Assembly (NCBI GenBank): GCA_021234155.1 | Contig: JAJEKV010000073.1 | Coordinates: 6,286,083-6,350,082 of the forward strand | Direction of reading: 5' to 3' | Source of the DNA: Isoetes taiwanensis | Lineage: Eukaryota; Streptophyta; Lycopodiopsida; Isoetales; Isoetaceae | Length of the DNA stretch: 64,000 bases | Shown here: positions 3,426 to 30,422 of the stretch, piece by piece | Position numbering within the stretch: position 1 is the first letter of the stretch | Layout: every line of letters starts with the position of its first letter | Translations under genes and position numbers: made by a program | The notes under the pieces: model-generated | Database searches by the model: none | What the model was told of the DNA's origin: nothing | The model's input: only the letters and a program-made list of their open reading frames with translations

Positions 3426-3586
3426 GGTTGAAACATCCGGTCAGGAATGCAAGTGGCCCTTGCAGTTTACGAGGGAACAATAGGTTTTGGAGTAGTTGTT
3501 ATATCTGGTATATTCCGGTATATCATTAGGATATGCCAAAAACCCACGTAAGCAAGGGTTTGCCCCCTTAGGGGCAACCCAAAAAG
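3426..3586 (+). repeat. Dispersed repeat, copy 1 (partner 9908-10071)
   Basis: This block of about 160 bp matches 9908-10071 in the same orientation. It runs from 'ggttgaaac' through 'aggatatgccaaaaaccca' to 'ggcaacccaaaaag'. The two copies bracket the Helitron-like end and the gene-fragment cluster. They could be remnants of terminal direct repeats of an old element or two independent insertions of one repeat; no target duplication distinguishes these. Confidence 0.65.
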
Positions 3587-10472: not shown

Positions 10473-10478
10473 GTACTA

Positions 10479-10567
10479 GGGAATCTACGCCCCGAGGGCA
10501 TTCCCCCAAAGAATTTCCGAGGCAGCGCCGCCAGCCGAGGCAGCGCACGAGCGGGGCATAGATTCCC
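10479..10567. repeat. Hairpin outside the left box of element 1
   Basis: The 16-nt arms GGGAATCTACGCCCCG (10479-10494) and its complement (10552-10567) pair with a single C/T difference. The loop includes 'ggcagcgccgccagccgagg', a phrase shared with the loop of the element 3 hairpin, and 'gggcattccccc', resembling the arms of hairpins 2 and 3. The following bases form a second, overlapping palindrome (CCCTTACG...CGTAAGGG) that reaches into the 25-bp box. Confidence 0.7.
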
Positions 10568-11350
10568 TTACGTAATCCACGTAAGGGTGGGATTACGAAC
10601 AAAGCAAATTTTTTTTCCCTTGCTTCATTCCGGCGACTCGCCGGTGTAGTGGCGCTGCTTCTTCTGATCGGTTCCGGTGAGGCACTGAGATAGGTAGATA
10701 GAATTTTGTTAAAAAAATTTCAAGTTCTTCAAGTTTCTTGAAACTTGTTGGAGTTTTTTGGAGTAGAGCACTTCCGAGCAGCTTCTGGCGACTTTCTTCT
10801 CGGTTTTTGTTTGGTGAGGATATGCTTCAAGAATTTGTTTATTTTGCTATTTTCTTTTAAATCTAACTTGTTCTTTCTGTTCTTTATTAGGTTTTTGGTT
10901 CTGGCATGTCATTAGAACACCTCTTGGCGAGAAACTAGTGTTCTTTATAATCTATTTTCCATGCAGTTACCTTTTCTTGATTCAGGCAACTCGACTTGTT
11001 CTGGCAGGTAAATTTTCGTCTTACAATCTTTGAGCAAGGTACATTACAAGCAGGTAATATTTAGTGTTATTTATTAAGTGATTTATCTATGGATTTGTTT
11101 ATGCCTGTATTATTTTTACAGATTTGACAGTCTGTTGTTGTGCTTGACTATAAGGAAGACATCTGTGGATAATTCTAGGGTGAGTAATCCTTCTGCATGT
11201 TAATTATTAGTTAAGTTTAGTGTCTTAAATTTGATTGTGTGTTAGTTTAGTATCTTAGTTCGGCTAGGGTAACTAATGTTCTTTTGTTTTTTATGTATGG
11301 TGCAGGTTATTTGTGCTGTAAACAACAGGTGTAAAGACTGACTTGTTGTT

Positions 11351-13686
11351 ATGTCTATGATGCAACCAGTATGTTTAACATGCTTGTTTGTCATAATAGC
11401 AAATATGGGAGAGAGTTCTCAGCCAAGTTTCTGTCTGGTACCTGGAGAGGGTTCTTTATTGATGCCTTCAAGTCCTGTTACATTGGAAGAAAGTCAAAGC
11501 ATCCTAGCAGAGTTCGTTGTTGGTGACAGTAGTAGCAATGAGGAATATGATCCAAAGGAGAATTGGCTTCCGCTTAATGAGGACTTATTGTCTGAAGCTT
11601 TGAATGGCGGTCCTGAGCAGTCAGAGAGTGTTAATAGCTGGGCGAGAAGAAGATTTGATGAGTGGAGGAAGGATTTTGGTTTGAATGTATCTATTCCGAT
11701 TGTGAAGTTGAGTATGCTTGAGCTGAACAAGATGTTGACGAGGTTTATTCTTCAGGTAAAATTTACTTTGTTGTTTCGTTTATTGTTTTATGTTTTGTAT
11801 TTTATATTCTGATATATTTGTTATGTTTTTTTAATAGGCTAAAAAGAAGAATGGAAAGATGTATCCACCCGGAACGTAAGTTCTTTTTATCATTTGTTAT
11901 TTTCAATTTTATTATTTTCTTTTTTGTTATATTTTATTATCTGTTCTTGTTTCCTTACTCTCTGTTCTTGTTTTTGTTTCTGTTCTAGGCTTAACTCTCT
12001 ATTGAAAGGTATCGGCAGGATTGTGCGTAGGGAGCAGCAGAGAGTTCAAGGAGAAACAGGTATCTGGGAGCCTCCATTTAATATCTTGTACGACCCTATA
12101 TTTACGTAGACTATGGATGCGTTTGTCAGCAGGGTTAAGAAGTTGAGACAAGATGGAAATTACGAGAAACCAAAGAAGAAAGCTCCTGTTATAACCTTCG
12201 CTTTAGAAAAGGATATTTTAGATGACATAGATCATCAGATGACGCATCCCACAGGTTGTATAAAAAGGCTTTTCTATTATATGGTCACACGCTTTGGGAT
12301 TAGAGGAAACAAGGAGTTGTGGAGAGTAAAAGATTGTGATATGACTCTTGAGGTGAATGATGGTGGAGAGTTGGTAAAATACGAGGAACGATTGAGTAAG
12401 AATCACAATCCGACTGCTACAAAGGTTGAAGATCATCACTTTCGTCAACCGGTTTGGACATACGAGTGTGACTTTGTACTGACATATAAGCAGTATATTC
12501 GACACTTGCCCGCCAAAGAAAATAATTCCATGCCACGTCCTTTTTTTTCTGCAGCCTATTCCTAGGTATAAAAAAAATGTAAGTTTCTAATTCTTTGTTT
12601 TCTGTTTTAATTGATTGTTATGTTTTCTGTGTTTCTGTTTTAATTCTGTATTATGTTAGGTGTTATGTTTCGTTATGTTATGTTTTCTGTGTTAATGTTT
12701 TAATTCTGTGTTTTAATTCTGTGTTTTCTGTATTATGTCAGGTGTGGTATGCTGTGACACCTGTTGGTATTAATTCTATTACAAAGTGGCTAATACAATG
12801 GCTGCAACAATCCATCTTGATACTGAAGTCTGCAACAAGTCTGGCAGGGTTTCATTAGTCTCACGTCTTTCAGCTGCTAGTGTTCCTTCTGACATAGGCA
12901 TGGCAATTACTGGGCATAGAAGCGCACCGGGTTACGAGAGGTAATTCCTATTTTATTTTGTTTGTTATATCTATTCTAATTGTTTTTGGTAACATGTTTC
13001 TTGCAGGTACGATCGAACTGGAGAGTAAAAAATTAATGCATGTATGAATTTAATTAGTCAACCGATCAATTCTGACGGGCAGATGCGAGCATACAAGGAT
13101 GTTCTTTCCGGTAATTTTTTTGAACTTTCCTTTTCTTATTTTTGTTATTTCTTTTATTATATTTTTTTCTTTCTGTTTTGCAGATGAAGTTTCGAAGCAG
13201 AATGCTGTTGGGACTTGTTCTAGGAACGCTCTTCATGAATTGAATGGAAATGTGACAACGTCAACAGTTCTGCGTGTTAAAGATAATCCAGGAAGCATTG
13301 CTAGTGGTTGTGATGATGTACAGTTAGGAGGTAATGCTAGTGCTTGCGATCAAGTACAGTTAGGTGGACAGACAATTGTACAGGAGAGCACGAGCGAGAT
13401 TGCTGCTAAGCAAATTACTGTTGAGAAGTCTCGTGATATTGTTAGCAATATTGCTGTGCCAGTTATTGAGGTTGATGAGGACGTATATGATGCAGCTTTC
13501 TATGATGAGCTTAGCAAGTGTTTCCCTGAAAGTGCTAAAGCAATTGGGAAGTATTCAGGTCCTGTCATTAACACTCAAGGAAGCTTCACGAACTGCACAA
13601 TTAATATTGGAATGGACATGAATCAGTTTGCTGGAGCTATTGGAGCTATTTTGAGTGTGTTGTGGAAAATGAAGCCTGATATCTGA
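11351..13686 (+). pseudogene. Crypton-like (DUF3504-type) tyrosine recombinase, decayed
   Basis: Six exons can be read: 11351-11755, 11838-11875, 11989-12578, 12742-12940, 13007-13110 and 13184-13686, all with GT-AG borders. The product resembles the tyrosine recombinases of Crypton transposons and the related DUF3504 proteins (ZMYM2/QRICH1 type). An N-terminal core-binding-like part reads WARRRFDEWRKDFGL and GTLNSLLKGIGRIVRREQQ. The catalytic part has box-I Arg in RFGIRGNKELW, then WYAVTPVGINSITKWL, NKSGRVSLVSRLSAA, MAITGHRS and the Tyr of GYERYDRTGE. The box-II HxxR is KxxR here (NKSGR). The tail has GSFTNCTINI. Decay: in-frame TAG at 12107, TAA at 13026, a +1 slip in an 8-T run at 12541 and a frame change near 12797. 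Either dead or badly assembled. Confidence 0.7.
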
Positions 13687-14011
13687 AACCATTAAACTGT
13701 TTGTGTTTGGGAATTTTCAGTTTCAGAATGTTCAGTTGTTTTGTTCAGTTGTTTTCAGAATTTTCAGAATGTTCAGATGTATTGGTGAAACTATGAAACT
13801 ATGTTTGTAATTGTGATTTTGCTATGAAACTATGTTTTGAATTTTGAAATGCTGTGTGTAACTGTAATCTTGTGAATCTTGTAATCTTGTGAATGTATGA
13901 AATAACAGTAATCTTGTGAATGTGTGAATCTTGTAATCTTGTAGTGGAGATAGAATTATTGGTTTTAAAACACACGGAAAAAGACAGTAATCCCACCCTT
14001 ACGTGGATTAC

Positions 14012-14941
14012 TTTCTTGTAAAACTAAATGATTTAGTGGGATTTTATCAATCCCGATTTTAATGGGTTAATGTTCTATCAATTCTTTAAATGCAAAAGAA
14101 AGTGAGTCGGAGGGTGATTGATAAAAATAACTCACGACGTCGGAAAGCAAGAAACCGGGCGCCCTCCATACGTACTTATTAAGTACGCCTTTTTGTATTT
14201 GCCGGCGTTGATCTTCTCGCGCCCCATTGCTTCTTCACTCCAGGCCAAGCAAGCATCTATTGTAGACTTTTCAAATTCGACACTTCTCCTCGTTTTGCTT
14301 TTGTAAGCCTCTCTGTAGGTATGCTTTTGCTTGCTTGCCACATATCATTGTCCAGGTTTTTCTTCCTTGTACAATTCATCCTTAGGTTTTGTCGCTTTTG
14401 CAGACTCCATAGTTGGAAAATTTGGGCAACGGGTTTTCCAAATTCCAGCACGACATCCCCTAATTGCCTTGTACCAAGGGCAATAAGCTGGGTCTTTCTG
14501 CCTTTTACTCCTCATGGATTAAAGTTTATAGCAGCGGGCATAGTTTGTTCGACCTATGTTGGATGGGTCCTTGCAAACGTTTTTTATATGCGTGTTAGAT
14601 TTTCGGAAGCGGATTTCGTCAGAGAGGTGCAGTGTATTATTTTCGGTGCAGTGTATTATTTTTTCTGTTTCAAAAAACCTTTACTATTTCTTCATTGGTT
14701 TGTCTTAACAATTATTCCGAACTCAGTTGGTGATTGAAGTCTTCTTTGTCTACAACTTATTTGATTGCATTGTACATATGGTTATGAGTTCTTTTCCCCA
14801 TCATGACGCGTTTGTTTCTTGGCTATTTGCAGCAAAGAATGTAATTTATGGAATCTATCATTAGGTTTCTAGTTATGCTGCCAATGCATATGATATATGC
14901 AATTAGCGCGATGGCTGCCATTTCCAGAACCAGCATAAAAT
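14012..14941 (+). promoter_or_regulatory. ATG9 5' region with probable leader intron
   Basis: No separate gene. A 3' splice site (atttccag, ending 14927) lies 14 bp before the ATG9 start. A good donor, CTGTAG|GTATGC at about 14310, would give a leader intron of roughly 620 bp with a 5' exon in 14200-14309. The transcription start and this intron are inferred, not seen. The region directly abuts the right box of element 1. Confidence 0.4.
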
Positions 14942-17900
14942 ATGTACATTGATAAGGTTTGGAGGAAGGGACCAAAATTTCATAGTATGCTACGCAATGA
15001 GGGACATGCAAGGCTCATGGGTGGACACACAGAAGTTGAGATGTTTGACTATCAGAGGTTGCCTGGAGGTGAAAGCCCCAGTCCAGTTGACTACATTAAA
15101 GGGGAAAGCTCAAAATATCAAGCTGTGACTGACCTAGATCGTTTTTTCGAGCGCTTGTATAACTATTATTGTAACAAGGGTTTTTGGTGCATCGTCACAC
15201 AGTGGATTGTGGAGCTTTTGTGCCTTGGTTTTACGATTGGGTTTTCTGGCTTCTTTTTATTGTTTGTGGATTGGCATGGATTACGGATGGCCAAATGTGG
15301 CATTGCAGCTGCAGAGGCAGGGAGCAAGCCTTGTGACCTTTCCAAGGAGGCTTTGTATGAGCATCCCTTAAAGCCATTGACCTTTTACAGATTCATGGTA
15401 GTGACGTACCTTGTCCTTCTTTCTGTTTATTGGCTTTGGTGTTTTCTACGTTTTTTCACACAGCTTAGAGAGACACTTGAGATACGGGACTTTTATCACA
15501 GGAGGTACTTCTCTTGACGGCTTTGCTCTTGCCGATTTTATTCATCTCATTCTTTGTTTGCTCAATTTTCCAGTTTGGGAATCACAGAAAGGGAAATACG
15601 CACAACACCTTGGCCAATATTGTTAGAGAAAACTGTACAGCAAAGGCTCTGTATTGTGCGCCACTTGTCTGCTCATGATATTGTCATGCGCATCATGAGG
15701 AAAGAGAATTACATGATTGCCATGGTAAACAAAGGAATTTTTGCATTGTCAATTCCTCGTTGGGTTCCTAGTGTTGGGCCTTCTGTTTATCGTGGTCCTG
15801 ATGGCCAGAAAAAGTACTTATTTCTTAGCAAGCCATTAGAATGGATCTTGAACTGGTGCATTCTGCAGTACATGTTTGACAGGTAGTTTTCTTGCTGAGT
15901 TTCTGTTGATTCTGTAACTCTGGTTAAATTTTACTGTTTGATTTTATATATGCTGCAGAAATTTTCTGCTAAGACGTGATTTTACAAATGACCCAATGCG
16001 GCTGAGAAAAAGATTGAGGGCAGTTGGTTTTGGCATGTTGCTGTTGTCACCGTTCCTCATTATATTCCGACTGGTTGGTTTTTTCCTAAAACATGCAGAA
16101 CAATTCTATAACCATCCTAGTTCAGCTATTTCTCGGCGGTGGTCAAATCTTGCAAGATGGACATTTCGGGAGTTTAATGAGGTATCTGTGCTTAGTATTT
16201 GGAGGATAGTGCATTATGTCTTGTAACTTCTAATTTTGATTTGTCGAATCCTCAAAGACTTGGTTTAACTTAGATATTGCTTTGATAAAGGATAAACATA
16301 AGCAGTCCTTCAAAAGAGAAAACAAGTCTGGCATTACTTTATACTTTGAGCCCGTGGCCAAGAAGACAAAAGTTTCTTAATCTCATTGTTTTAGTTTTCT
16401 TTTTCCTTTTTATGCAATATCTCTAGGTGGCTGCAAATGCGCCCCTAGCTGGACATGATTGATGTATATTTGGTCTCATAGACCCAAGCGGTCTCTCGTA
16501 GACGTTAATATAATCTTTTTTTCTTTGAACATGTCTTATGGAAGCTCAGATTCCAACTTCAGAAAAAATTTCCTCAGATAATTTTGAACAAAGTAGTGAC
16601 ATAATATTGATTCAATCTCATTAGTGTAGCATGTGAAAGTTGCAAAGAACCTCAGCGAGTGAGATCATGATTTGCTGCAACTTCTCATGAATGTTTACGT
16701 CTGCCCTGATATGTGTTTGTGTTTGACATGTTTCAGTTGGAGCACATGTTCAATCAACGCCTTAATGCAAGTTATAGACCAGCTGTCGAATATGTGAAGC
16801 AGTTTTCATCTCCAATTGTGTCAATGATTGCAAAATTTGTGTCATTTGTTGCTGGTGGGCTGGCAGCTGTTCTTATCATTATTGCATTCCTTGACGAGTC
16901 TCTTCTAGAGGCACATGTATGTTTTTCGTGCAGTAGTGCAATTACTAATCCTTGAATTAACAAATTTTCAATATGGCCTTTTTAACATTGTTTGCCATCC
17001 AGTTATTTGGTCGGAATCTTTTTTGGTTGGCAGCCGTATTTGGCACTATAACTGCTATTAGCAGATCTGCAATTGCAGAAGAATTTCAAGTTTATGATCC
17101 TGAAGGGGCGATGAAGTCTGTAGCACAGCATACACATTATATGCCCAAACATTGGCGAGGGGCAGAGGGTTCACATCAAGTACGCTCGGAATTTGAGATA
17201 CTCTTTCAGGTGAGTAGAGAAAATAAATATTCGGTGAATCTTTTGAAGTTAGTAAATCTGTTTCCTTCACATCCATAGCTTTCTTAGCTTTTATTTGTCT
17301 TTTCAGTACATCGGTGTGATCCTGTTGGAAGAGATGGTCTCCGTTTTTGTAACACCATTTATTCTTTTTGTCCATTTGCCTGAGGTAATTATGCTTATAT
17401 TATATTTGCTCCTTCCATGCTTATGTGTTCTAATTGAGTGCTAGACATGTTTTTATAGTGTGTGGATGATGTGCTGAAGTTCGTACAGGAGTTTACTGTG
17501 AACATTACAGGAGTTGGTCATGTTTGCAGGTTCGTTTGAATGGTTTGAGATGTATTATGTTGTGCTTGTTGTAATAGCTTATCATGATGTGTTTTATGCA
17601 TATATTTTTTACTTATTACTGTTTATCTGGTGGAAGTTGCTTCCAGTTTAAGCGTATTTGACTTCGAACATCATGGTAACAGCAAGTATGGATCCCCATT
17701 TCATACTATCAAAGAGCGGAGGAGCGCCCAAGGAAAAATGGAGAAGTCGTTTTTGAGGTATGCATGTATCAATCGTGCTTCAACATACATTTGATCAAGG
17801 TGCCTATTAAGTGATGTGTGCATAAAAATTTGTTGCCAACAGCTTCAAAAGCAATTATCCAAACTGGGAGCCAGACCTGAAAGGAAAGCAGTTTTTGTCA

Positions 17901-18587
17901 TCCTTAGCAGAATTTAGGTCCCGTCATGAAGACACAAATTCTTCAATTACTGCTAGTCCTTTTCAACACCTGGCAGCATCCTCTATGTACCGATCAAGGT
18001 TAATGGGAAATGGATGTTGGCAACCATTTCTTTGCAGGGAAGGGCAAAATCGCTTTCCCATGCCAAAAGCAAGCCCGAGGTCAAATGTAATAGTTGACAA
18101 TCAATTATGTGACAGCATTGTTGACCAAATGGACCACATATACTGGCTTGATCAATTCTATACATCGAGGTCAGTGCAGTTTACAGCAGAAACAGAAGAA
18201 CCATCTACCAGGTCAAAAAATGATTTGGCCAGAAGCCTCACTGGTATGCCAAGCACATCTCAAACGGTCTCGCCAGAAAATGAACTTGTTGGCAGGGTTG
18301 CTAATATTCCTGGAGGAGAGAGCAGGTGGTGGGCAAGAAAGGCGCCGGGTTCAACAGTAGATACCGAGAGCTTTTTCGAGCCTCCTACATTTGGGGATGG
18401 TCATTTACCTGATTATCAAATTGGTGATATGGAGAGTGATGACGACCATGAAATGGATTGGACACTAAGGAGACAATCCCGCAGTGCCTTCACAAGTAGT
18501 GATATTGATCACGAGCCAAGTGAGTTTGATCTTCCATTTGGTGATGTTTATGAAAGGCCAAGGGAGATTAAAAAACTGGACAGTTAA
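14942..18587 (+). CDS. ATG9: Autophagy-related protein 9 (lipid scramblase)
   Basis: Nine coding exons: 14942-15504, 15574-15882, 15959-16181, 16737-16916, 17003-17209, 17307-17384, 17459-17529, 17647-17757, 17843-18587. They sum to 2,487 nt, an open frame of 828 residues, close to the usual plant length of about 870. ATG9 is the only multi-spanning membrane protein of the core autophagy machinery; it travels in Golgi-derived vesicles and moves lipid into the growing phagophore. Visible family signatures: DLDRFFERLYNYY (about residue 64) before the first helix (about 88-109), a second helix at about 149-172, HDIVMRIMRKENY, PLEWILNWCI, HAEQFYNHPSS followed by RRWSN, FREFNE, IVSMIAKFVSFVAGG, LFGRNLFWLAAVFGTITAISR, HYMPKHWRG and GKMEKSFLSF, then an acidic, Ser-rich tail without helices. 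The start is set by an in-frame TAA two codons upstream in the same exon. All introns are GT-AG. No break seen; expected functional. Confidence 0.95.
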
Positions 18588-19602
18588 GATTCAAGTAGAG
18601 ATGTCATAAACCTTCTCCTTGTAACGAAAATGTGAAGTAAGCTTCTTGTATCTTGTATTTGCTTGTGTATGTCTTTCTGGTTGATGATTACTGAGACATG
18701 TCCTCTTCATTTTGCAGATTAAACTTTGATTATTCTTTTACACTGATGGATGAATAATGGATGCCTTCAAGAAATGTGAAGGGAAGTCATTGTATGGCTC
18801 AATCAATTCTTTCAAAACCATGTAAAGTTACTTGTAACCTACCCTCTGAGCGACAATTCTAGAAAAGTCATTTTTGGCCATTTTGCCATGATTTATTGGA
18901 TTTAACTTGTAAGAGGTACCATATAGCAAAATTAATACAATTTTTTGTACATATTGGACTTGTACGAGGTACCATTATCAAAATTAATACAAATTTTTGT
19001 ACATACCGACATTGTGCAGACATTCGAAAAGGATGGAGAGGACAAGCATCAAGCTTTTACATTGTTTGTGGTTTCAAGTAGGCACAAGAGGAACTTAATT
19101 GTAGTTTGAATGCAGTTCTGCATGTTGTCCCTAGTTTGTGATGCCATGCATTTAAGGAGGTTGTGGATCAAATGTTGCAAACCTGCTCCTTGGCAAATGA
19201 CAGACCATTTTTGTAGTACTTAGAAGTAGCAGAGTTATTGAGAGGGAAAGGAGATCAAGGTGCAAGCAAAAGTTTTTGTTTTTCAATTTTAACTTACGTG
19301 CTTGTCAACGTACATGACATCTACCTTTTACTCCTATGTTTTCAAGAGAAACCCATGTAGTGCAAAATGCGAATATGCTCACAACTCATGTATCTGCAAT
19401 TATACAAACTAAAAAATCAATGTCATTTATAGTGGTAAACGTCACATCGAGTGCAGTTAAAAGCTTTGAATGATAACAAACAAAGAGAATTCCCAATGTT
19501 AGAATGTGCAAAATACGTTGCATTCTTAAGTAACAATAATGTTGTATAAAGAATGAACAAATTGTATAAAGAATGCCTATACATTCCACAACCTGTGGAT
19601 CT
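18588..19602. other. Convergent 3' flanks of ATG9 and COM1
   Basis: Roughly 1 kb between the two stop codons should hold both 3' untranslated regions. It has no further gene. The only structure I see is the 55-bp tandem duplication listed separately. Confidence 0.6.
18896..19005. repeat. Tandem duplication, about 55 bp x2
   Basis: Units at 18896-18953 and 18954-19005 share 'gaggtaccat' then 'caaaattaatacaa' and 'ttttttgtacata'. Small differences suggest a moderately old duplication in the ATG9 3' flank. Confidence 0.8.
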
Positions 19603-21651
19603 TCAGGATCTTTCTGAATCAAACCCAATGTTCCAAAATCCTTCAGGTGTTGCAGGAGGTAGAAACCTGTATCGATGCCTAGATGCCACACAATGGTGTT
19701 CACATTTGAATGCCATAACTCCATGAGCATCTTCTGCAAGAACAGCATCATAGAACTTCTTGCATTGCCTGCAATCTGCTTCCTGCAACTCTTCCCTTTC
19801 ACTCTTTTTCCTGACAGCTTCCACATATTTATATCCAATCCCTTTCACCTTTGTCTTCCTAGGCTCTTCAGTTTCACCCTTGGGCAAGTCAGAGATTGCA
19901 TTTGAAATTACCAACTGATCTTCGTTTATGCTGTCCCCAGCATTTAAGACCCTGTATAGCCTCTTCTTTACATTCTTAAAATCAGCAGCAGTAAAAACTT
20001 CATCTAGTGTTAAGGAATCTGGAACAAATTCTGGGCCATCTCCATGAAGAGAAAAGCAAATTTTCTCAAACTCGTCTACAGGTTGACAAGTTTCACTGTC
20101 ACTGTTAACAGGAACCTCATATCGAGCAGAAGGCATACTTGTAAAATCGACTTGAAGGTTTTGCAGGGCAAGTTCATGTGGTGTGTTCAAAAAATCGTCA
20201 TGTGGATCTTCCCCACATTTCCCTGAACCAGATCTTGTACTGCGCCACAAATCTTTTTCCTGTCTAGCAATAAATTTTCTTTGCTCTTCATTTGTTAGCA
20301 CAAGTTGGTTGTTTTCCTTCCCAGAGTAGTCTGCAATAGACGTTTCCTTTCTTTTAAAAGGGGCTTGGAATTTTATCGTTTGTTCTGCTTCAGGAATAAT
20401 TCTATCCTCTTGTTTTTGAAAGGCTTCAAAACTATTGTGCGCTTGAGCAGATTCATACAGGAATATCCTGAACTTTCTGGAAAGCTGGCTCTCCTGCGCC
20501 AGCAATAAATTGATCCTTAACTTGCTGAATGAATACTGCTCCTACAGCCTTCTCGCTGAAAGATGTATTTTTTGTAGTTGCAAATTCTGATATATGATGT
20601 ATCACATCAAACATGGTCGATGATTTCCTATGGCCAGTTACAGCTTTTCCTTCATCAGGGGAACCTGATACAGCATTTCCATCATGAATGCTTTTGGCAA
20701 GTCTGTCATCATCATCATTGTCCTCTTTTTCTTCTTTGTAATCTGTGTTGATAAACGTTCATAATTACAATCTATCTTGAAAGAATTTAACAAGCATCAA
20801 AGGAAATAGCCATAGCAAGACTTACAATTTGCATCAAATTTAGGGTTTTTGCTGCATTTATTCGATACAGCTGCTTCAGCATCTATCATCCTGTTACCTT
20901 TCCCTTTCTCAGCGAGAAACTTCATGTCATTGATTCTAAGTACCGAATTATACTGTTTATTTAAATGCCGAAACTTGCGCTCAAGGAGTCTGTATTTTTT
21001 AAGAAGCAATGATGCTGCGTCTCTTTCGCCATTCAGTTCTGCAGTCTGACTCAAGAACTCCTGTTCTTTTAGGTTGAATCTTGTTTTCATGACTTCCAAC
21101 TCCATTGACAACTTCTGCTTCTCTTCTTCCATGACCTGAATTTTCTTATGTATCTGTGTAACTTCCAAGTTCAGAACTTGGAACTTCTCACGAATTCCAT
21201 CATAATCCCGAGTCACATTATCATGCTTTTCCGTAAGGCTATGCATTTGATTAGACAAATCTTTATTGTGCATCATCAAATTCTCATTTTCTTGACCGAG
21301 CTTGTGATGCAGATCTGCATTTTCTTGTAGCGTCTTTTCTAGAGCCAGTAAACGTTCTTCCTTCTCTTTAAGAAGTAGCAAAAAATGATTTTCTTGCTGA
21401 ACAATCGAGTTTTGAAGATGTGTATTGTGAGAGATCAAGTTGGCCCTTTCTTGTTGCCAACTTTGAGGCGAATCAGCAGCCTCCATTGCCGGGTACAGCT
21501 TTCTCAAAAACAGTATTTCTAGACTTTCAATGCGTTCTTTCACATCCTCGATGCCCGCCACAAACACCTGGACATTCTCCTTCAAATACCCAGTCTCTTC
21601 TGCGACAACCAATTTTGATTTCTCACTGCTATAAGTTTTCATTGCCTCCAT
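19603..21651 (-). CDS. COM1: COM1/SAE2/CtIP-type DNA-end resection factor
   Basis: Two exons: 20826-21651 (starting at the ATG complement at 21651) and 19603-20742, with an 83-bp GT-AG intron. The protein activates the MRE11 complex to clip double-strand-break ends, including meiotic SPO11-bound ends; the plant protein is also called GR1. The N-terminal exon is almost wholly coiled coil (about residues 60-260; heptad-rich EEKQKLSMELEVMKTRF), matching the tetramerising and dimerising N-terminus of the family. The C-terminus has the diagnostic zinc-type CRQC, then CEHHC, RHRYRF and PPATPEGFW, ending shortly after. Between them the frame does not run straight through: near 20440-20560 the reading changes frame, explained either by an indel or by removal of 52 nt (GTAGGA...GCGCAG) as a very short intron, which would give 637 residues. 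Element 2 lies about 190 bp upstream. Confidence 0.85.
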
Positions 21652-21758
21652 AGCACTTTGCTTAACCTAAAGGTTCTACTCTAAACCAAAATTTTGTCCA
21701 ACAGAAAGAAAGAGAGAGAGAGGCGGCTTTACCTAATCAGCACCGCGTCCTTCCAAAA

Positions 21759-21770
21759 CTTGGCGGGAGA
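21759..21770 (+). promoter_or_regulatory. E2F-type site upstream of COM1
   Basis: CTTGGCGGGAGA matches the core of the E2F consensus (TTTGGCGGGAA) except at the edges. It sits about 110 bp upstream of the COM1 start codon, where plant S-phase and DNA-repair genes often have such sites. It is close to the only unique promoter sequence left between the gene and element 2. Function is inferred. Confidence 0.45.
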
Positions 21771-21842
21771 TTTTCGATAGACGATGTCAACGTGAATACG
21801 TACCTGTTATGGGGACGTATGTAACATATATAAATAACCTTT

Positions 21843-22666
21843 GTACTACGTAATTCACGGGAGGGGAGGCATTCCGCCTAGTAGGGTCTCGAGATGGTGC
21901 ACGAGCAGCGAAGCCGCAAGTGCCGCTGAGAGATCCTACAAGGGTGGAATGCCCCCCTCCCGTGGATTACGGGATGTAATCAACACTAGGTTCAAATTTT
22001 CAAGTGGAAAATGCTCTGTTTTTGTGATGAATCGGCTTTTAATCAATTCTTATACAAGATTTGAACGGATTTGATGATCAAAATCTAGAGACAAGCAAGC
22101 AATCTCTGCAAAAAATAGTCAAAGCATCATGCAAGCAAGAAAACTCAGCAAAAATAAGCATGTTTTTGTGAACGAAGCATCTACTTCTAAGAAGAAACCG
22201 ATTGCCAAAACCAATCTGTCAAAACCGGTAGCTTCTTTCTTCGGCTGGCTCTGAAAGCCCTAAAGCACCTGCAAGGGCTACAATCTATCATCTCTAAGAC
22301 CCAAGAGTTAAACAACCCAAAAATCGGGCTTTTTTTTTCTAGATTGACATTCTGGAAATGTTTTAGTAGGTACTAGAAACAAAAACGTCCTTGGGGTATA
22401 TCGGGGTTTCACCGGATCTACAGAGGAAGAAAGAAGAGGCTTCTAAAGCACAGGATCTACAGAAGAAGAAAGAAGCACCAGATCCTTCACCAGATCAGCA
22501 GTTGAAGCACCAGATCATCTGTTGTCTTGATAAAAGCCCTAAAGCCTCATTCGGCAGTTGAAGAAGCATCCCCGTGGTGGGGCGTGTTCTCAAGCAAAAC
22601 CGGAATATGTTTTTGCCGTATAATTTTAACGTAATATAGGCGTAATTTGAGCCTAGTGTTGATTAC
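21843..22666. mobile_element. Element 2: non-coding relative of element 1
   Basis: Layout: outer GTACTAC (21843-21849); hairpin arms 21850-21890 and 21930-21970 (both 41 nt); a 5-bp spacer (gggat); box GTAAT-N15-ATTtt (21976-22000); a 641-bp interior without an open frame; inverted box GTAAT-N15-ATTAC (22642-22666). The two boxes match over 22 of 25 positions as inverted copies; the inner pentamer of the left box has decayed from ATTAC to ATTTT. No target duplication is found. The interior has no resemblance to element 1 that I can see. It occupies the COM1 promoter side. Confidence 0.7.
21850..21970. repeat. Hairpin of element 2, 41-nt arms
   Basis: Arm 21850-21890 and the reverse complement of 21930-21970 both start GTAAT, pass through CACGGGAGGGG and GCATTCC, and end in TCTC, agreeing at most positions. 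The 39-nt loop (21891-21929) contains 'cacgagcagcg'. Arms of the same length and similar sequence occur in element 3. Confidence 0.85.
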
Positions 22667-23330
22667 ATATCTATAGTGGTCATGGGAAGTTGAAGAAGGG
22701 CTAAAAAATGGCTGCAAATGAACTTATACTAGTCTACTCTGATACCAATGCCCATTTATCATAGTGTGCCCATTGTCGTTTCCGCCTACTTAAGAATCTA
22801 TAGTTTGAAGTACTATAGTCGAAAATGCTAGCTACATTATCTAGATATTAGAATCTATGTACAAGTTGCATATGGTAAGGTCGAGAACTTATCATGTAGA
22901 AACTGCAAGGTAGTAGTTGCAAAGCAACTTGTTAGTTGTTTTAAGGGGTTCTTCTGGGAAGAGCACTTAAAAAAATTACATGCACTTTAAAAAGCTGTAA
23001 GTTTGGATTCGTGTCAAGCCGATAAGAGTTCTCTTATGCGAGGCTTAATGTGATGCAACTCGGGCTAATATAGGAGCATGCGGCTTCAAGTAGAACCATA
23101 CAGAAGCATGCCATGGCATAGACTACTTCTAGGCCTCTTATATGCTCAACTTGTGGGGTACTTTGATGGTCATGCCATATTGATTCCTAAAGATCACAAC
23201 TTTAAGGGATTCAGTAGATTCCCCTTATCGAAGAACTATCGTCTCCCTTGACATAAGTCACTATACTTTGTCATTCGCAGTTCTAAATGATCTTTTCAAT
23301 GGGCGTCATTGATCTCATAAAAACCATTGT
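22667..23330. other. Spacer with tRNA-Met primer-binding-like motif
   Basis: No gene. On the minus strand, 22737-22748 reads TTGGTATCAGAG, the usual plant retrotransposon primer-binding site for initiator tRNA-Met. It suggests that an old LTR ended at about 22749 in minus orientation, but I could not define that LTR. Confidence 0.35.
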
Positions 23331-24510
23331 GCTGCCACATTTTGGCAGCATAGAAGAGCCATGCACATAATTTGCATCTTTGGCTAACATTTGGATTGAT
23401 CCAAGTTATTTTGGCATGAATTCCATTCTCTAAGGCTTCTTTCATGTTTCTACCATCTTGATCCTATTCATGAAACACCTTTCATACTTCATACTTCATT
23501 TTGCCATGCTCCATTACCATTTCCCCTAGCCATCTCTAAGGTCTAAGACCATTTTCTCTCTCTAAAAACAGAACTAGAGAGGGAAGTGCATATTTTTTTC
23601 CAAACAATTTGAAAAAGCAAATTTGCCAAGTTAAAGCATAAAATTCTAATGTGTATGTGCACAAAATGTCAAATATTATGCCAAATCATCCACATCATTT
23701 TCAAAATGCCAAATCATCACCCAAGTGCATCCACCTCACCATACACGTCATCCAACTCATCACCACATCAAAAAAGTTTTGACTAGAAAAAAGTTCCTTT
23801 GCCACCTTGCTTGCCACATCATCACCTCATTATGCCATGTCATCACCCATTTGCCACATCATTCATAACCTTGCCGCATCATCATAATTAGCCTCATTTT
23901 TAGCCAAAAATCAAGATGCTCTTTTTTGCAAAAAGATTCTTCCATCTTGTAGAGCATAAAAAAAGATTCCATCTGGAAAAAAGAGAGAGAGAGAGAGAGA
24001 GAGATTTTTTGAAAAAGATCTTGTTATGACCCTCATATTCCATTTCTTGGGAATCATGCCACCAAAAAAAAAAAATTCTATCCCCTGGCCAAGGCCTAGT
24101 CTCTCATTTTCCCTAATCCCCCCCCAACACCACCACATGGTACCTCCAGGCGTGTGGGGCGGCAACGAGTCAATACCCACGTGGAGGCAGCACATAATTT
24201 AATAATTACACTTGGATTCGTTTATATATGCCCTGATCTTCCATTTCAAAACAAGCCTGTGGGATATTTTGAAGGATTCTGAAGAATCCTAATTCCGGCC
24301 AGATCAATATTCAGACCTTTTTGGCTCGATCTAACAATTCGTTTGATAAAACTAGTGCAAAACCAGCACAAACCCCGCAAAATCGACTCAAGAGATAGAA
24401 TAGAAGAACAACTCTATTGAGAAAATCAATAAGAAATACAATCTCTACTTCTGAGCATTGTTTTAATGGCAACCTTGTTTCTCCCGTTTCTCTATCAGAC
24501 ATGATGATCT
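23331..24510 (-). mobile_element. LTR remnant related to the long LTRs at 25.5 and 60.1 kb
   Basis: Reverse-oriented and partial. It ends (minus sense) in GGCAGCA at 23331, as do the other two long LTRs, and shares their distinctive interior, including the 'ccacgtgggt...ccgccccaca' block at about 24140-24185, a run of G, and strings of 'atgatgtgg' repeats. It lacks the TGTTGAAGG start and joins the truncated copia pol at about 24510, in the same orientation. It may therefore be the 3' LTR of that copia element after an internal deletion. An (AG)11 microsatellite lies at 23983-24004. Confidence 0.55.
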
Positions 24511-24561
24511 CCTAGGTTCAACAACAGGTACAATAGGTGCTGCAACCGATTCTGCAACAAT

Positions 24562-25496
24562 TTATTTTTCCTTGAGACGTGTTGATCTCCTAGGTTCAAC
24601 AACAGGAGGTGTGGCAGGTGCTACAATAAGTGCTATAACAGGTATTGGATCAGGTGCTACAGTACCTTCATGTGTGCTGGGTTCCCCCCAAAAGGAACCA
24701 ACCTGCTCATGGACCAAAGGGTTAGTGGGATGGGGATCATCCCATTCCACTACTTCAGGCAAATGTGAGTTCACTAGAGAAACCATTAGAGAGGGAGAGA
24801 AAGGCCTACCAGCAGCTGCTATCAAATCTCTAACATCCAAGCTGCTATCATTATGACTGCAGGAGAATCACTTGAAGATATACCATCATACACAGCATCT
24901 TCAACAAACTGAACTGACCTGCTTACAATAACCTGCTTGTTTGAAGGATCATACAACTTGTAACCTTTCTGATTTTTTGGATACCCAATGAAGATGGCTT
25001 TGACAGCCCTGTCATACAATTTCCCATACTTTTTCAGCTTCTCAGCAAGTATGGAAGCATAAGCCAAACACCCAAACACCCTCAATTAAGATACATCTGG
25101 TTTCATTCTTCAAAATGCTTCATAAGGAGTCACATTCTGGACTGCCTTAGCATGCGGCTATTTGCCAGATATACTGTTGTCACTACTGCTACTGCCTCCC
25201 CCCAAAAAGATTCTGGCAGTTGCTTGTGACTTACCATAGATCTTACCAAATCAAGCAAAGATCTATTCGACCTTTCAGCTACACAATTTTGTGGATGAGC
25301 GTAAAGATTAACAGTCTTTCAAAACCTTCCTCCATGAGAAACTCATCAAAGGCATTAGAAACATAATCACCTCCATTGTGACTTCTTAACTTTTTTATTA
25401 CTAATCCTGTCTGCATTTCGACTGTTGCTTTAAAGGTCTTGAACTTGCCAAGCACTTCAGATTTGTAGTGCAAAGTACACATCCAAGTGTACCTAC
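24562..25496 (-). pseudogene. Copia integrase, central and C-terminal part
   Basis: Frames read LHYKSEVLGKFKTFK, TGLVIKKLRSHNGGDYVSN, FDEFLMEEGF, then CVAERSNRSLLDLVRSM, LPESFWGEAVAV, RVFGCLAYA, and IFIGYPKNQKGYKLYDP. This is the catalytic core and C-terminal domain of a copia integrase. The canonical LRSDNGGEY is LRSHNGGDY here, so the second catalytic Asp is His. Frame changes occur near 25280 and 25090. It ends with the linker peptide RRSTRLKEK, after which reverse transcriptase is missing. Confidence 0.8.
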
Positions 25497-28060
25497 TGTT
25501 GAAGGTGTTCCTGGCAAAACCTTCAACCTCAGTGGTTTAGAACCTCCAAGTTCTTAAGGCAACCACTCTGAATGCAAAAATTCTGAGAACAATACTCAAG
25601 AGATTGATTAAAACAGCTTTCCCTGAATGATAAAAAGTCTGCCTCGGAAGAATATCTGCCACATGCACACAACTTGAGCTTTGGGCATGATTCTTGTTTG
25701 CACAGATGCTCAACACCTATATTTATATGGCTGCAAAAGTCTAAAATAATCTGATAAGGGTAGATAGGCCAAATTCTTGTTCCTGACCCAGTCAATTTCT
25801 GGTCAGTATCCCTAGCAGAGAGCTCACTTTATGATCTCGCTAATGGCAATATATTCTTTGGTTTTGAAAACTTCACCTATCCAGAAAATATCTGCACACA
25901 AGGGGCCTTGATGTTTTTGGCAAATAGAACTCTAGATTTTTTCCTTTTTTGAATATTTTGGCTGACTGCTATAAAGTATAGACAATTGTGAACAAGACCC
26001 TATTTATGAAGGAATGCACATTAATTCTAATGCTTCTATGTTTAACATGCATCAAAGGATAATCTTAATGCCCTAGGCACTTCTATCTCTTGTTCTAATG
26101 CTCGATGCTGACTTCTGCTACAATAGACCTAGAGCAGATGATTCGTCCTAGCATTGACGATCTAGAGTGGCACAAGGATTGTCTTGCACTTGCAGAGAAC
26201 ATGTTGAGATGTCACGCTCATGATATTTGGCTGCTAAGATAAGATGTAGCAAAAAACTCTGGTGACAGCCACTTTTTGAGAACAGATCAACACTTGGCAC
26301 AAATATTCAACAACAAGGATCGGATTTTCAATTAATTCAGGCACTCAAAAGTAAACAATATGAATCCCAAGCTCTGAGTCTTGGGTACAAGATCAAATAG
26401 GTAGACAATAAATCAATCCAGATAATTTAGTCAATAATCCGAATTGCAAATCAAGTTTGGAGGTCGGAATCAAGCTCAAATCGATCAAGCCGATCCTTCT
26501 TCAAAGCAAGCAATCAATTCTTCGCCTCAAAGCCCTCGATCTTGCCTTCTGTGAAAAAACCCCTTTTGTAGATGCTCTGTTTTGTTGAGTTCTTGATTAA
26601 TTCCATTTAATTCTCTGTCTTTTAGCTCCCAATACGTGTTCTTGGCATTAAACAGAGTGATCCGGCAGGTTTAAGTCATGATTGAGAGGTTAGTTTGGCC
26701 GAATCAAACGGATCTTGGCGCTCTCAGGTTTTAGGGTTCTTCAGAATTCAAGTGAAATATCCCACAAGCTTTTTTAGGTTTGGTAGCTCAAGGTATATAA
26801 CGAAAAGAAAATCCAATATTTATAATAATTGCGTGCAATATCCACGTGGGTTTCGGTAGCTCAACCGCCCCACACGCCCGGATGTTCCACGTGGCATGGG
26901 GGGATTGGCTGGGGAGAAAAAATAGGCTTGGGGGGAGGGGGGGTAGATAGGAAAAATTTTTATTCCAAGGAGTATGGCACGATTCCCTAGGAGACGAATA
27001 TAAGGCTCAAGATAAAACAATTTTTCAATTTTCTTTTTTTCAAAGGGAATCTTTTTTTGCACTCTGGAAGATTCTGGAATCTTTTCTTGCAATAGGGCAC
27101 TTTTTTATTTTGGCTTAAAAATGGCTCATGGGATGAATGATGTGGCATATGAGAGTGGTGACATGGCTAGATAAGGATGGTGGTGACGTGTCAATCAACT
27201 TGGGCTTAGAAAATTCTTTCTAGTCAAAATTGCAAGTGATGAGGACATGATGTGTGTGACATGTGGATGGTGATGTGGTGGTGCTAATGATGATGTGGCA
27301 AGGTGATATGTCATCTTATGGGTGCAAGTTTGATGCCGTGAGATAGATTTAAAGTTTGAACATGGAAATGGAAGCATGACATGGCATGACTAGAATGGTG
27401 ATGTGTATGGTGACTTGGCACATAGAATGAAGTGTATGGTGACTTGGCACATAGAATGCACCCTTCATGGGTCAATTTTTGTAAAATGCAACTTTTTGAC
27501 ATTCCCTAGGGCACTCTTGAGTCTTGAACATTTCCCTTAGGGATTTTGTAACTTTCCCCTTTCTTTGACCATGTTGCATGAAATGTTGACTTTTTGACCA
27601 CATGTATGACCAAGTCAAGTGAAGTTTTGAACTTTTGGATGGTGATGAAATGGTGTGAGAAGTGTGTAACAAACGAATGGTTCTTGAAGGTGTATTTTTG
27701 ACTAGAAAGAATTTTCAAAGCTAAGTTTGACTTGGGAAGGAATTGTATGCATGGAATTCAAAGTCTCATGGGTGTTTTATGGTGGTGGAAGGTATGGGGG
27801 ATGTGGAGTATAAATCAAACTGCACAAAGATACCAAGAGATGATCTTCTAGGGGTCTTCTTTTTCCTTCTCCTCTTTTCTTTTGCTTGATTCTCCTCTTG
27901 TCTCTTTTGAGTAACCTGAGTTAATTGTCCTCTCCTTGCTCTTCAAGCTTTCAATGTATGCTAATGAAGCATTCTTCTAGTGCCTTGTAATTCAGATCAA
28001 AGTGTAAGGATTAGTCTAGAAATGTGCTTAGCTCTTCCATGCTGCCATAACATGGCAGCA
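25497..28060 (+). mobile_element. Solo LTR, 2,564 bp
   Basis: It begins TGTTGAAGG and ends CATGGCAGCA, flanked by the 5-bp duplication CCTAC (25492-25496 and 28061-28065). It interrupts the copia integrase cleanly: joining the flanks and removing one CCTAC restores an uninterrupted minus-strand frame across LIDDFSR / YTWMCTLHYKSEV. No internal region or second LTR is present, so unequal recombination has removed the body. A related LTR is at 60134-62601 and a partial inverted one at 23331-24510. Short open frames inside it have no coding signature. Confidence 0.9.
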
Positions 28061-28440
28061 CCTACTGAAATCATCAATCAGAATCAAGAAATACCTCTTC
28101 CCACCTAGTGAAACATCAGGAATATGGCAAAAATCAGTTTGCAGCAGCTCAAGAGGTTGAGTTGCTCCCCTTGCTATCAAGAGACTTCTCCAAATGAGAC
28201 CACATCTCCTTAAACTCAGTAAAATGTTTGATTTTATGATCAATTGTCTCTTCAGCCAACATTTTGACAAGAGCACAAGCTTTCTGGTTTATCCTACCAG
28301 CATCTGCTAACTTGGTGCTGATAAAATCTTCATCAAATATCGCTCCTTCATTAAATATCAAATAATTCACCATGTTCTTCTTCCAAGCATGGTAATTATT
28401 ATTATCTGTGAGAACTTGAATGGATACATGAATCTTCTGT
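28061..28440 (-). pseudogene. Copia gag joined to integrase start
   Basis: Minus-strand frames give NNYHAWKKNMVNYLIFNEG, KACALVKMLAEETIDHKI and FTEFKEMWSHLEKSLDSKG, typical of the gag (UBN2-type) domain of plant copia elements. Almost at once RGATQPLELLQTD and VSLGGKRYFLILIDDFSR follow, the start of the integrase catalytic core. Protease and the zinc-knuckle are deleted. The frame shifts between the two parts. Confidence 0.75.
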
Positions 28441-28720
28441 TTTCAGCAGCCAAAAAGATGGTTGAGAAAACCAATTCGTCACCAAACAAAGCACCCACCA
28501 TAAAAGTTGAATCTTGAATTTTGTCGCCAAAAAGATCTTGGAAAACTGGAACATGAATTTTTGACGCAAATATCGGTGGAAAACCTTATTTTTCTGTATA
28601 TCATCCTGTGCCCAAGACTTATGAGCTTGGAATTGATCAAAATATTATTATTTGATGTCCTCATTGAATGAAAATTCGTACCTTGGTAAAGTTTGTGCAA
28701 TCTTTATGTATTAAAGATAG

Positions 28721-29481
28721 CTAAAGAGACAAAAAATTGGCAGAAAAGTACTAAGCTGGAGGTAAAAATTTCTGAAACGATTCTCAAAGTTGAAGTAAAT
28801 TTGCAATATTAGAGATTGATGCATCATTCAAAAAACAAGAAAAAGAAAGATATTAATCTCATTGCATGCGTTACTAATAGTATAGACTAGATAGATTTGG
28901 ATTTTTTAAACTTAAAACATTCCAGGCCCTGCATTCGTGTGCAGCATTAAAAGAAATACTAATCTAGAGTAAGCCTTCAGGGAAAGCTCAGATTGGAAAA
29001 GAATTTAAAATTTTAGAACTTCCAAGGCTACCATGGTTTCTAAATGAAAAAAATTTCCTTTTGGGATGAATCAGCACTTTTTGCCCAATGGCTATAAATC
29101 ACTTCATATGCAGTCTAGTAAGAAAGTGTAGGAGGTGTCAAAATAAAAAAAAGGATTCCATTTGCTCATTTTGTAAAAAATTAATTGCTGGTTCATGCAT
29201 TGCGGCAGTCCTCTTGCAAAAAAGTCAAGATTTCTGATTTTTGGCAAACAACTTGATGCACCTTGCTTTCAGGTTTGTCGGAGTTCTCAGAAGGTGAGAA
29301 ACACCCATGAATTTTGCCCATTCTAGCTACATGAATTCATAGGAGAAACATTTATGGCTACATCAATTCATAGGAGAAACAACCGTGATTGAATAATCTT
29401 TTGCCAGTTTGGCCTCTTTCGTTGTTCTAACTATTGGATTTTTCATTTTCTAAAATGGGTGATCCATCCATTATGTGGCAG
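28721..29481. other. Unassigned spacer
   Basis: AT-rich sequence without a supportable gene. A short pair of near-identical phrases, 'acatgaattcataggagaaac' and 'acatcaattcataggagaaac', occurs at about 29330-29382. Upstream exons of the AP2 gene scrap that follows were not found here. Confidence 0.5.
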
Positions 29482-29662
29482 TTTATTTAGGTACATGTTT
29501 TTCCTCTCCATTGTCGTGCAACAGTGCCATTTTCTGTTCTTGGGCTAGATCTATCCATTTATTCTGCATTCCTTTTGATTTTGCAGGTGGGTATGATAAA
29601 GAAAAGAAAGTTGCCCGCCCGTATGCTTTGGCCGCTCTCAAGTACTGGGGATTGACTTCCCG
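29482..29662 (+). pseudogene. Orphan AP2-domain exons (AINTEGUMENTA/PLETHORA type) with 9-nt microexon
   Basis: Two consecutive exons with intact splice borders remain: a 9-nt microexon (29482-29490, TTTATTTAG, between 'ggcag' and 'gtacat') and a 76-nt exon (29587-29662). Together they read [25 protein letters not shown], matching the repeat-1 AP2 core of ANT/PLT/AP2-class transcription factors (family form [25 protein letters not shown]). The 9-nt VYL microexon is a known peculiarity of this family. No upstream 'YRGVTRHRWTGR' exon or downstream repeat-2 exon is visible. The E-to-K and A-R-A to A-R-P changes are unusual. Element 3 starts 53 bp downstream. Either a pseudogene remnant or exons of a much larger gene whose other exons are beyond recognition. 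Confidence 0.8.
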
Positions 29663-29715
29663 GTAATTTGCATCTGCAGTCGCCAAAGCTTATCTAACAG
29701 TTGCCTTTCCTTAAA

Positions 29716-30422
29716 GTAATAAACGGGAGGTCAAGATTACTGTCAAATTCCGTCCCTCCAATTTTCGCGTAATATTCTTCGCCACTTGCAGAGCGGCGCC
29801 GCTTTGCTCTGTTTCAATGCGCCGTTTTGCTCTGTTTCTGCGCCGCTTTGCTCTGTTTCTGCAGAAATGCTTTTGCTCTGTTTCAACGCCGCTCTTCAAA
29901 ACGACCTTCAAGCACACTGCCGGAACAAAGAAGCTCTGTTTTGGCAGCACTGTGGCTTGGTTGAAGGACTCAAAGCGGAGAGCCAGCAATAGGTATCTGG
30001 CTTGCTTAAAGAACTCGGATCATGGCTATGGCGTCAAAAGGTCGGGAAAGGGGCTTCTAGGGTTTCCTTGGTGCAGCCTTTGGTGATACTTCTTTAAAAA
30101 ATGCACAAGATTTTGCCCTATTCCGGCTGGAAGAGGATTCTGAGACCTTGATTCTGAGACCTTGCTTCGATTTGCACCAGAAAAGAGGCGCTGGAACAGA
30201 TGATTTAAGAATTTTAGTCTTCATTTTCGTAATCTTGACCTCCCTGTTTATTACGTCCCGTAATTGATGGCAGGGGGGCACTCCGCCCTCGTAGGGGCTC
30301 TTGGCGGCGCCGCCAGCCTCAGGGCACTCGCGGCTCCGCCGCTCGTGCGCCGCCTCGGCTGGTGGCGCCGCCTCGAGTCCCTACGGGACGGAATGCTTCC
30401 CCTGCCATCAATTACGTAGTAC
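29716..30422. mobile_element. Element 3: non-coding relative of element 1, reversed
   Basis: Reading on the plus strand: box GTAAT-N15-ATTAC (29716-29740); a 488-bp interior; inverted box (30229-30254, one extra base); a 5-bp spacer (gtccc); hairpin arms 30260-30300 and 30375-30415; then GTAGTAC (30416-30422), the complement of the GTACTAC that bounds element 2. The orientation is opposite to elements 1 and 2 but the order of parts is identical. The interior has a short repeat run of 'ctgtttctgcgccgctttg'-like phrases (about 29808-29895) and no supportable gene. No target duplication. Confidence 0.7.
30260..30415. repeat. Hairpin of element 3, 41-nt arms and GC-rich inner stem
   Basis: Arm 30260-30300 pairs with 30375-30415, both beginning GTAATTGATGGCAGGGG in stem sense and passing GCAYTCCG to GTAGGG. 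The 74-nt interior continues the stem with 'ggcggcgccgccagcctc' against 'ggctggtggcgccgcc', so nearly the whole 156 bp could fold. Similar in sequence and length to the arms of element 2. Confidence 0.85.

Follow-up and report, generated by a model that had tools for sequence, protein, structure and literature searches.

The 64,000-nucleotide stretch of the Isoetes taiwanensis genome analysed here (the window; contig JAJEKV010000073.1, positions 6,286,083 to 6,350,082) contains three pairs of inverted boxes of the form GTAAT-N15-ATTAC, in which N15 stands for 15 variable bases. The three pairs mark three elements of one superfamily. This superfamily is large and consists of plant elements which encode an enzyme of the phage-integrase type and whose two ends match in such a way that one DNA strand could fold back into a long hairpin, a design so far familiar from the cassettes of bacterial integrons. 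In window coordinates, the elements and their parts are:

10473–14011, plus strand: element 1, 3539 bp, decayed autonomous, from the tip to the end of the right box (ends by analogy with eight empty sites)
10473–10478, plus strand: element 1 tip GTACTA, 6 nt, putative crossover spacer
10479–10567, plus strand: element 1 GC-rich palindrome
10568–10571, plus strand: element 1 spacer 2, 4 nt, TTAC
10572–10596, plus strand: element 1 left box, exact pattern
11558–11755, plus strand: putative recombinase exon E1, N-terminal part (located by tblastn between copies)
11990–12547, plus strand: putative recombinase exon E2 with the first catalytic Arg (GIRGNKEL) and one in-frame TAG at 12107–12109
12783–12941, plus strand: putative recombinase exon E3 with the second Arg and the His (NKSGR..TGHRS); an earlier part of the exon lies in another frame
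13005–13106, plus strand: putative recombinase exon E4 with the candidate catalytic Tyr (RYDR) and an in-frame stop in the element 1 copy
13987–14011, plus strand: element 1 right box, exact pattern; its final ATTAC is the end of the element
21843–22666, plus strand: element 2, 824 bp, non-autonomous
21843–21848, plus strand: element 2 tip GTACTA
21849–21971, plus strand: element 2 palindrome
21976–22001, plus strand: element 2 left box, inner pentamer decayed
22642–22666, plus strand: element 2 right box, exact pattern
29716–30422, minus strand: element 3, 707 bp, non-autonomous (empty site L035)
29716–29740, minus strand: element 3 right box, exact pattern
30229–30254, minus strand: element 3 left box, 26 bp, one base unpaired in the fold
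30255–30258, minus strand: element 3 spacer 2, GGAC on the minus strand
30259–30416, minus strand: element 3 palindrome
30417–30422, minus strand: element 3 tip GTACTA

Read from left to right, an element consists of a 6-nt tip GKANTA, a GC-rich palindrome, a 4-nt spacer (spacer 2), a left box, the interior and a right box ending in ATTAC. Palindrome and spacer 2 together take up 93–214 nt, the left box 24–26 bp and the right box 25 bp, and the element lengths observed range from about 0.4 kb (locus L055) to 3.9 kb (L019). The scan for left ends covered 55 sequences and gave 28 rows, five of which were excluded (four anchored on right boxes or by chance, and L072, whose palindrome lies elsewhere); the 23 left ends retained are those with at least 13 of 20 arm pairs when spacer 2 is preset at 4 nt, the other left boxes being truncated, decayed or partly fetched. 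The tip is GKANTA in 20 of the 23 (in L012 after a shift of one base) and one letter off in the other three, while spacer 2 is GGAC in 14, TTAC in five, GTGC in two, and GGAT and TTAT in one each. Two left-box-like boxes lie close to each other in L048 (226 and 256) and in L096 (G000:C908:12293732, 12294015), perhaps as nested elements or partial arrays.

Within the window, a pattern scan located exact boxes at 10572–10596, 13987–14011, 22642–22666 and 29716–29740, i.e. four in total, against a mean of 0.06 and a maximum of one in 100 shuffled sequences. The original prediction, made from the letters of the window, had added a box with N16 at 30229–30254 and one without the inner ATTAC at 21976–22000, and both are as claimed. 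It had further described N15 as the same, and inverted, at the two ends of an element, which applies to each of the three, apart from a single substitution in element 2 and an additional base in element 3. Real, too, is the hairpin that it had placed 5 nt from one box, but in our register only 4 nt separate the stem from the box, and the structure belongs to the element itself. Two further claims had to be abandoned. The elements are not unrelated: tip GTACTA, palindrome, 4-nt spacer and box plan are common to all three, and the mirror image of element 3 aligns with elements 1 and 2. Nor do their N15 differ completely, since in 24 distinct right boxes, with positions counted on the strand of the left box, position 8 is A in 23, position 9 is C in 22 and positions 14 and 15 are G in 19 each.

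Element 1 carries what is, with good support from the sequence, a decayed gene for a putative Crypton-like tyrosine recombinase (YR). Its stop-to-stop reading frames include TRFGIRGNKEL and CNKSGRVSLVSRL..ITGHRSAPGYER, which we take to be catalytic motifs of tyrosine recombinases; decay of the gene shows in the TAG at 12107–12109, in a shift of frame within exon 3 and in a stop codon of exon 4. One exon has at least 150 matches in the same genome (150 scored of 1439 candidates), and the copies are dispersed across many contigs. The involvement of a recombinase, as proposed in the original prediction, is borne out, in that element 1 and at least 150 genomic copies encode a YR-like protein and GTAAT forms part of a repeated half-site. 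Gene copies were sampled at 20 matched loci and at four with long open frames; exons were located by tblastn in element 1 and all 24 loci, with some exons missing from individual copies. In an alignment of six spliced copies, the third row of which combines exons of two copies, GIR, KSxR and TGH are invariant (6/6), as is RYDR in the five rows reaching that far. Matches were obtained to DUF3504 in three of the six spliced copies (Pfam; best E 0.0097, weak), to QRICH1 in one (Pfam; E 0.019, weak) and to a PHROG integrase family in four (best E 0.0078). An NCBIfam scan of the recombinase gave no relevant family, a Pfam scan of two element 1 exon pieces gave no match, and no relative was found in the viral contigs searched. 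In 10 of the 11 element 1 frames of at least 80 aa (all except 11843–12109), Pfam detected no DDE, Rep, helicase, HUH, reverse transcriptase or RNase H match; the other copies were scanned with Pfam in their YR exons. A CcmD_alt match in element 1 (E 0.00026, below the cut-off of that family) was read as a hydrophobic intron frame and set aside. The single YR-like gene recognised in element 1 lies inside the element. The C-terminal part of this gene (window 13054–13686) is without a Pfam match, and the tails of L075 and L077 are similar to it by eye. In L017 (G000:C1018:23753992-23758932), a second, inverted recombinase copy adjoins the gene, with inverted repeats of up to 60 nt.

The joined flanks of 18 elements were searched against the genome for empty sites. 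Paralogous stretches without the element were found for eight (L011, element 3, L019, L020, L023, L025, L059 and L062), and none among the candidates scored for the other ten, which include elements 1 and 2. Base-level alignment relates flank^flank to flank-GKANTA...ATTAC-flank in 8/8 cases with no duplication and no loss, and neither a terminal direct repeat nor a target-site duplication is present at any of the eight. The first tip letter is A in L011 and the fifth is A in L023, and at some empty sites one or two letters can be assigned to either side, tip and flank both starting with GG or GT. Seamless insertion is well supported by these alignments. They also place the palindrome inside the element, at its left tip, and put the crossover between the final ATTAC of the right box and the 6-nt tip GKANTA, not within N15 as had been suggested.

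Target letters were counted in 28 of 31 elements, the other three being excluded with another element's tip as right flank (one of them also without a left flank). To the left of the crossover stand T at −4 (22/28), T at −3 (23/28), A or T at −2 (28/28) and T at −1 (22/28), and to the right G at +1 (16/28) and A at +10 (20/28). Homology between tip and target stands out only at position 2 (17/28 versus 11.4 expected; P 0.008, uncorrected for six positions) and is only suggestive. The empty site of L019 (L039; G000:C1059:6855259-6855558) lies in a stretch which, by our own reading, resembles the PSPG motif of plant UDP-glycosyltransferases, and elements may land in or near genes.

The genome-wide excess of boxes expected by the original prediction exists for a refined pattern and not for the bare one. 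GTAAT-N15-ATTAC as such occurs at 3474 places, with 3532 in the reversed control; with AC at positions 8–9 and GG at positions 14–15 added, 688 places compare with eight reversed, and with GGGAC in front (left boxes) 124 compare with 21, identical N15 recurring at several places. GTAAT-AATGTTCTAAAAGTA-ATTAC or its complement is found in identical form at G000:C2:377922, C20:157502, C20:273606, C23:140589 and C23:206746, and looks like another repeat family which fits the bare pattern by chance. Among 100 places listed of the 688, convergent neighbours at most 10 kb apart agree at 14 or 15 of the 15 N15 positions in 17/17 cases, and the four neighbours that are not convergent agree at 10, 15, 15 and 10; random box pairs agree at 8.6 positions on average and reach 14 in 4%. 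In the gene-found set (element 1 and 20 loci), the exact pattern identified both boxes in 10 of 21 copies, and the two correspond in all ten (the pairs of L014, L015 and L018 with few differences). The left box of L009 has one letter changed, and the other ten copies are without one or both boxes by exact pattern; the interiors of L009, L010 and L011 hold a 27-nt box-like match without counterpart. From the GGGAC left-box places, a matching right box (score of at least 18) was found in 15 of 20. The remaining five score at most 11 and have no other exact box, and for one of them, L043, a similar box lies just past the fetched stretch (C42:21044).

N15 is nearly fixed within a subfamily, different between subfamilies and complementary between the two ends, and the palindrome arms behave alike. 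Unequal lengths of left and right box recur: 26 versus 25 in element 3 and L063 and in L010 and L011, and 24 versus 25 in L023 and L025; in element 1, which belongs to the L010 subfamily, both boxes measure 25. N15 is neither the crossover, which is the tip, nor freshly copied with each move as had been considered, being nearly constant within a subfamily and with 1-base length differences recurring between copies. An N15 that is constant within a family, combined with families unrelated elsewhere, had been named beforehand as what would refute the original prediction; the first half of this was found, but the families are related elsewhere.

The two ends vary in pairs. With each different N15 represented by a single element (both boxes 25 bp long), and each different arm likewise, 204 of 210 pairs are intact in 14 distinct N15, against a mean of 117 and a maximum of 151 with shuffled partners, and 14 of the 15 N15 positions have at least two pair types; in 22 distinct palindromes, 283 of 308 arm pairs are intact, against 180 (maximum 217). 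Seventeen joined ends folded as DNA give one long hairpin each, with the tip opposite spacer 2 and, where the boxes are unequal in length, the extra base unpaired. Right boxes read GTAATNNAC with few exceptions. On the arm side, the half-site TAATNNAC occupies positions 3–10 in 12 of the 22 distinct arms, five of them with CGTAATNNACG, and four arms of the element 1 type begin GGGAA. Once joined, the half-sites are imperfect inverted copies on either side of a spacer of 6 nt, a layout shared with YR sites, which are described as two inverted repeats of 11–13 bp, 6–8 bp apart (PMC3212892).

Elements also occur in arrays. At 39 places a 7-mer resembling the tip stands immediately after a right box, versus three when the letters of the tip are rearranged. 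Judged by eye at 12 tandem places, the next element is clear in six (L063, L065, L066, L068, L070 and L072), without continuation in four (L064, L069, L073 and L074) and ambiguous in L067 and L071. In L066 (G000:C988:46000-48900), a short element occurs in three copies, head to tail and 936 and 933 bp apart, perhaps through recent circle-derived or repeated insertion, and in L065 parts of three different elements stand in a row.

Our preferred reading, which we regard as rather probable, is that these elements represent a superfamily of YR DNA transposons with a Crypton-like enzyme, the recombination site of which is made up by both ends within a single folded strand. With these ends brought together, either in a circle or in synapsis, the series of right box, tip, palindrome, spacer 2 and left box would fold into one long imperfect hairpin, in which the boxes pair over about 25 bp, the arms pair with each other, and an asymmetric internal loop of 6 nt over 4 nt remains between the two stems. 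The half-sites, GTAATNNAC on the box side and often TAATNNAC on the arm side, would lie on either side of this loop as inverted copies, the arrangement of YR core sites. Cleavage would take place between ATTAC and GKANTA, the enzyme would join only the strand cut there to a target rich in AT (TTWT^G), and resolution of the junction by replication would let the element enter seamlessly. The tip of an old element would offer the same overlap, so that new elements could enter just in front of it and give rise to arrays. N15 and arms could drift between subfamilies, provided that both sides change together, because pairing would matter more than letters. The outcome of insertion looks like that of a single strand: in 23/23 left ends scored (20 exact, three one letter off), the tip stands at the left and target letters at the right. 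If a heteroduplex were repaired at random, about half of the tips should have moved to the right; the left-only tip and the seamless sites would be compatible with one-strand exchange.

A possible but rather unlikely alternative is that the same YR transposon acts on a duplex circle by strand-biased exchange as in bacterial SE elements. Right box, tip and arm 1 would then be a duplex core site, spacer 2, arm 2 and left box would serve as extra binding sites, replication start or transcription terminator, and the one-strand outcome would follow from ordered exchange and replication. The inverted half-sites around 6 nt at the joined end and the AT-rich target letters on both sides of the crossover suit this explanation, and SE elements are reported to carry core motifs C and C' of 19 bp in inverted orientation, a circle spacer of 6 bp and top-strand-only exchange in circle formation (PMC9345347). 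It leaves unexplained, however, the pairing of the boxes along the whole 25 bp, including letters beyond the half-site motif, the pairing of the arms and the single 6-over-4 register which fits 23 left ends. We infer that the folded strand is more likely than the duplex, because only the folded strand would explain arm 2, spacer 2 and the left box.

Several points nevertheless weigh against a folded-strand site. A protein that recognises duplex ends would likewise call for ends that match in inverted orientation, and it is from the sequence that we infer the circle, the single-strand substrate, the activity of the enzyme, the position of its cut and the replicative resolution. The 17 folded elements were picked for a palindrome and matching boxes and thus fold by construction; as the 4-nt spacer was preset in the search, only the good fit of that single register is informative. 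The search for right boxes of the GGGAC set used their similarity to the left box and so leaned towards complementary pairs, a bias of which the ten gene-found copies with both boxes by exact pattern are free. Very close N15 variants differ mostly at one end only (20 loci), which is decay after insertion and not compensation; near-neighbour N15 partners score at least 17 in 14 of 20 loci, are doubtful in one (L100, 14) and wanting in five (at most 12), and this finest-scale test on 20 loci gave no support for compensation. Paired change is accordingly seen between subfamilies and not among recent copies, a pattern that selection for pairing during transposition would produce. The 1-base box difference is not general, 18 of 31 left boxes being 25 bp long, and the arm half-sites are loose (exact CGTAATNNACG in 5/22, TAATNNAC in 12/22, GGGAA in 4/22). 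The Pfam and PHROG matches of the recombinase are weak, and a PDB profile search with it gave no YR but one irrelevant chain (E 0.22). As to the arrays, the reversed control of the tandem search gave 25 places and the reversed count of the letter-rearranged control 12, and continuation into another element is clear in only 6 of the 12 places read.

Fold-back copying, by which hairpin-primed synthesis would in every round use one end as template for the other (the copied segment of the original prediction), would account for N15 being identical and inverted at both ends and for a hairpin adjoining one of them; it is very unlikely, as it would erase the box length differences that recur in subfamilies (element 3/L063, L010/L011, L023/L025). 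Helitrons encode Rep/helicase and have a hairpin near the 3' end but no terminal inverted repeat (TIR), and HUH rolling-circle elements in general also insert without duplication and have a hairpin near one end. Seamless insertion, hairpin and arrays would agree with such an origin, yet no Rep, helicase or HUH match exists in the ten element 1 frames scanned, the hairpin is at the 5' tip by gene direction, the ends are inverted half-sites and the gene inside is YR-like, which makes this explanation highly improbable. Equally improbable are ordinary TIR transposons with a DDE transposase and the boxes as plain TIRs, to which inverted ends and short copies resembling miniature inverted-repeat elements would point, given the absence of target-site duplications at 8/8 empty sites, of any DDE family in 10 of 11 element 1 frames of at least 80 aa, and the YR-like gene.

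With regard to known systems, DIRS and Ngaro are YR elements with inverted or split repeats, DIRS combining reverse transcriptase–RNase H with a YR; unlike them, element 1 has no reverse transcriptase or RNase H match in the frames scanned. Cryptons (CryptonF, S, A and I) share with the present elements a YR as the only recognisable enzyme, the absence of a reverse transcriptase match in those frames and the weak DUF3504/QRICH1 matches. DUF3504 derives from Crypton YR with the loss of most of the catalytic tetrad R-H-R-Y (Kojima and Jurka, PMC3212892), whereas catalytic residues are kept in the copies here. In the available parts of the same source, Cryptons are given no TIRs and no long direct repeats but short (4–6-bp) terminal direct repeats, and for plants only Chlamydomonas is named, plus a green-alga mitochondrial gene (PMC3212892). 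The word Crypton is absent from the accessible text of a review of land-plant transposable elements (TEs), which lists green algae as the only plants with DIRS (PMC9033089); a plant TE atlas has 535 Crypton entries in one database column (PMC8729191). In contrast to Cryptons, the present elements have inverted boxes of about 25 bp, a palindrome, no terminal direct repeat and seamless insertion.

Integron cassettes are inserted without duplication and form head-to-tail arrays. Their attC sites are described as palindromic, with limited sequence conservation, a conserved fold, an unpaired central spacer and extrahelical bases, one strand being exchanged and replication resolving the junction (PMC8946536). 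The present elements likewise insert without duplication and stand in arrays, and their paired variation and single register would be compatible with a site of this kind if it folds in vivo. They differ from integrons in the recombinase inside the element, the lack of a fixed platform, a fold made from both ends, dispersed insertion and a plant host. SE elements are similar in their inverted core motifs and the 6-bp spacer, and their one-strand exchange (PMC9345347) would be a further likeness to the mechanism proposed here; the arm motif is loose in the present elements. According to the accessible text, SE elements possess four core genes, two of them for YRs, and select few targets, the 6 bp tend to land beside the other end after integration, and no palindrome or second inner box is mentioned (PMC9345347). 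One YR-like gene is recognised in element 1. CTX phage has a folded single-strand substrate, as would the present elements, but is a phage genome using host Xer enzymes and a fixed target. Its YR-mediated insertion at dif involves replication (PMC9345347), as would the insertion proposed here.

The elements should therefore be filed neither as Crypton proper nor as integron. No published description of such an element was found in titles and abstracts, most subscription papers and all preprints being outside the scope of that search, and this variant among YR transposons has a fair chance of being the first eukaryotic single-strand YR system described. We are evenly divided on whether it is a eukaryotic counterpart of integron recombination, i.e. 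a system which folds one strand, builds its site from both ends and inserts seamlessly by single-strand exchange into cassette-like arrays, few limits being set to the sequence of the site provided that its self-pairing is kept. If so, a scar-free recombinase which reads shape over sequence would be a useful tool, and GTAATNNACNNNNGG...ATTAC with seamless ends would serve as a search rule for finding further elements. It would also explain how families of elements in one genome diverge in their end sequences and yet keep matched ends. Single-strand, structure-read tyrosine recombination would then not be only bacterial, but would be used by a very successful group of plant transposons.

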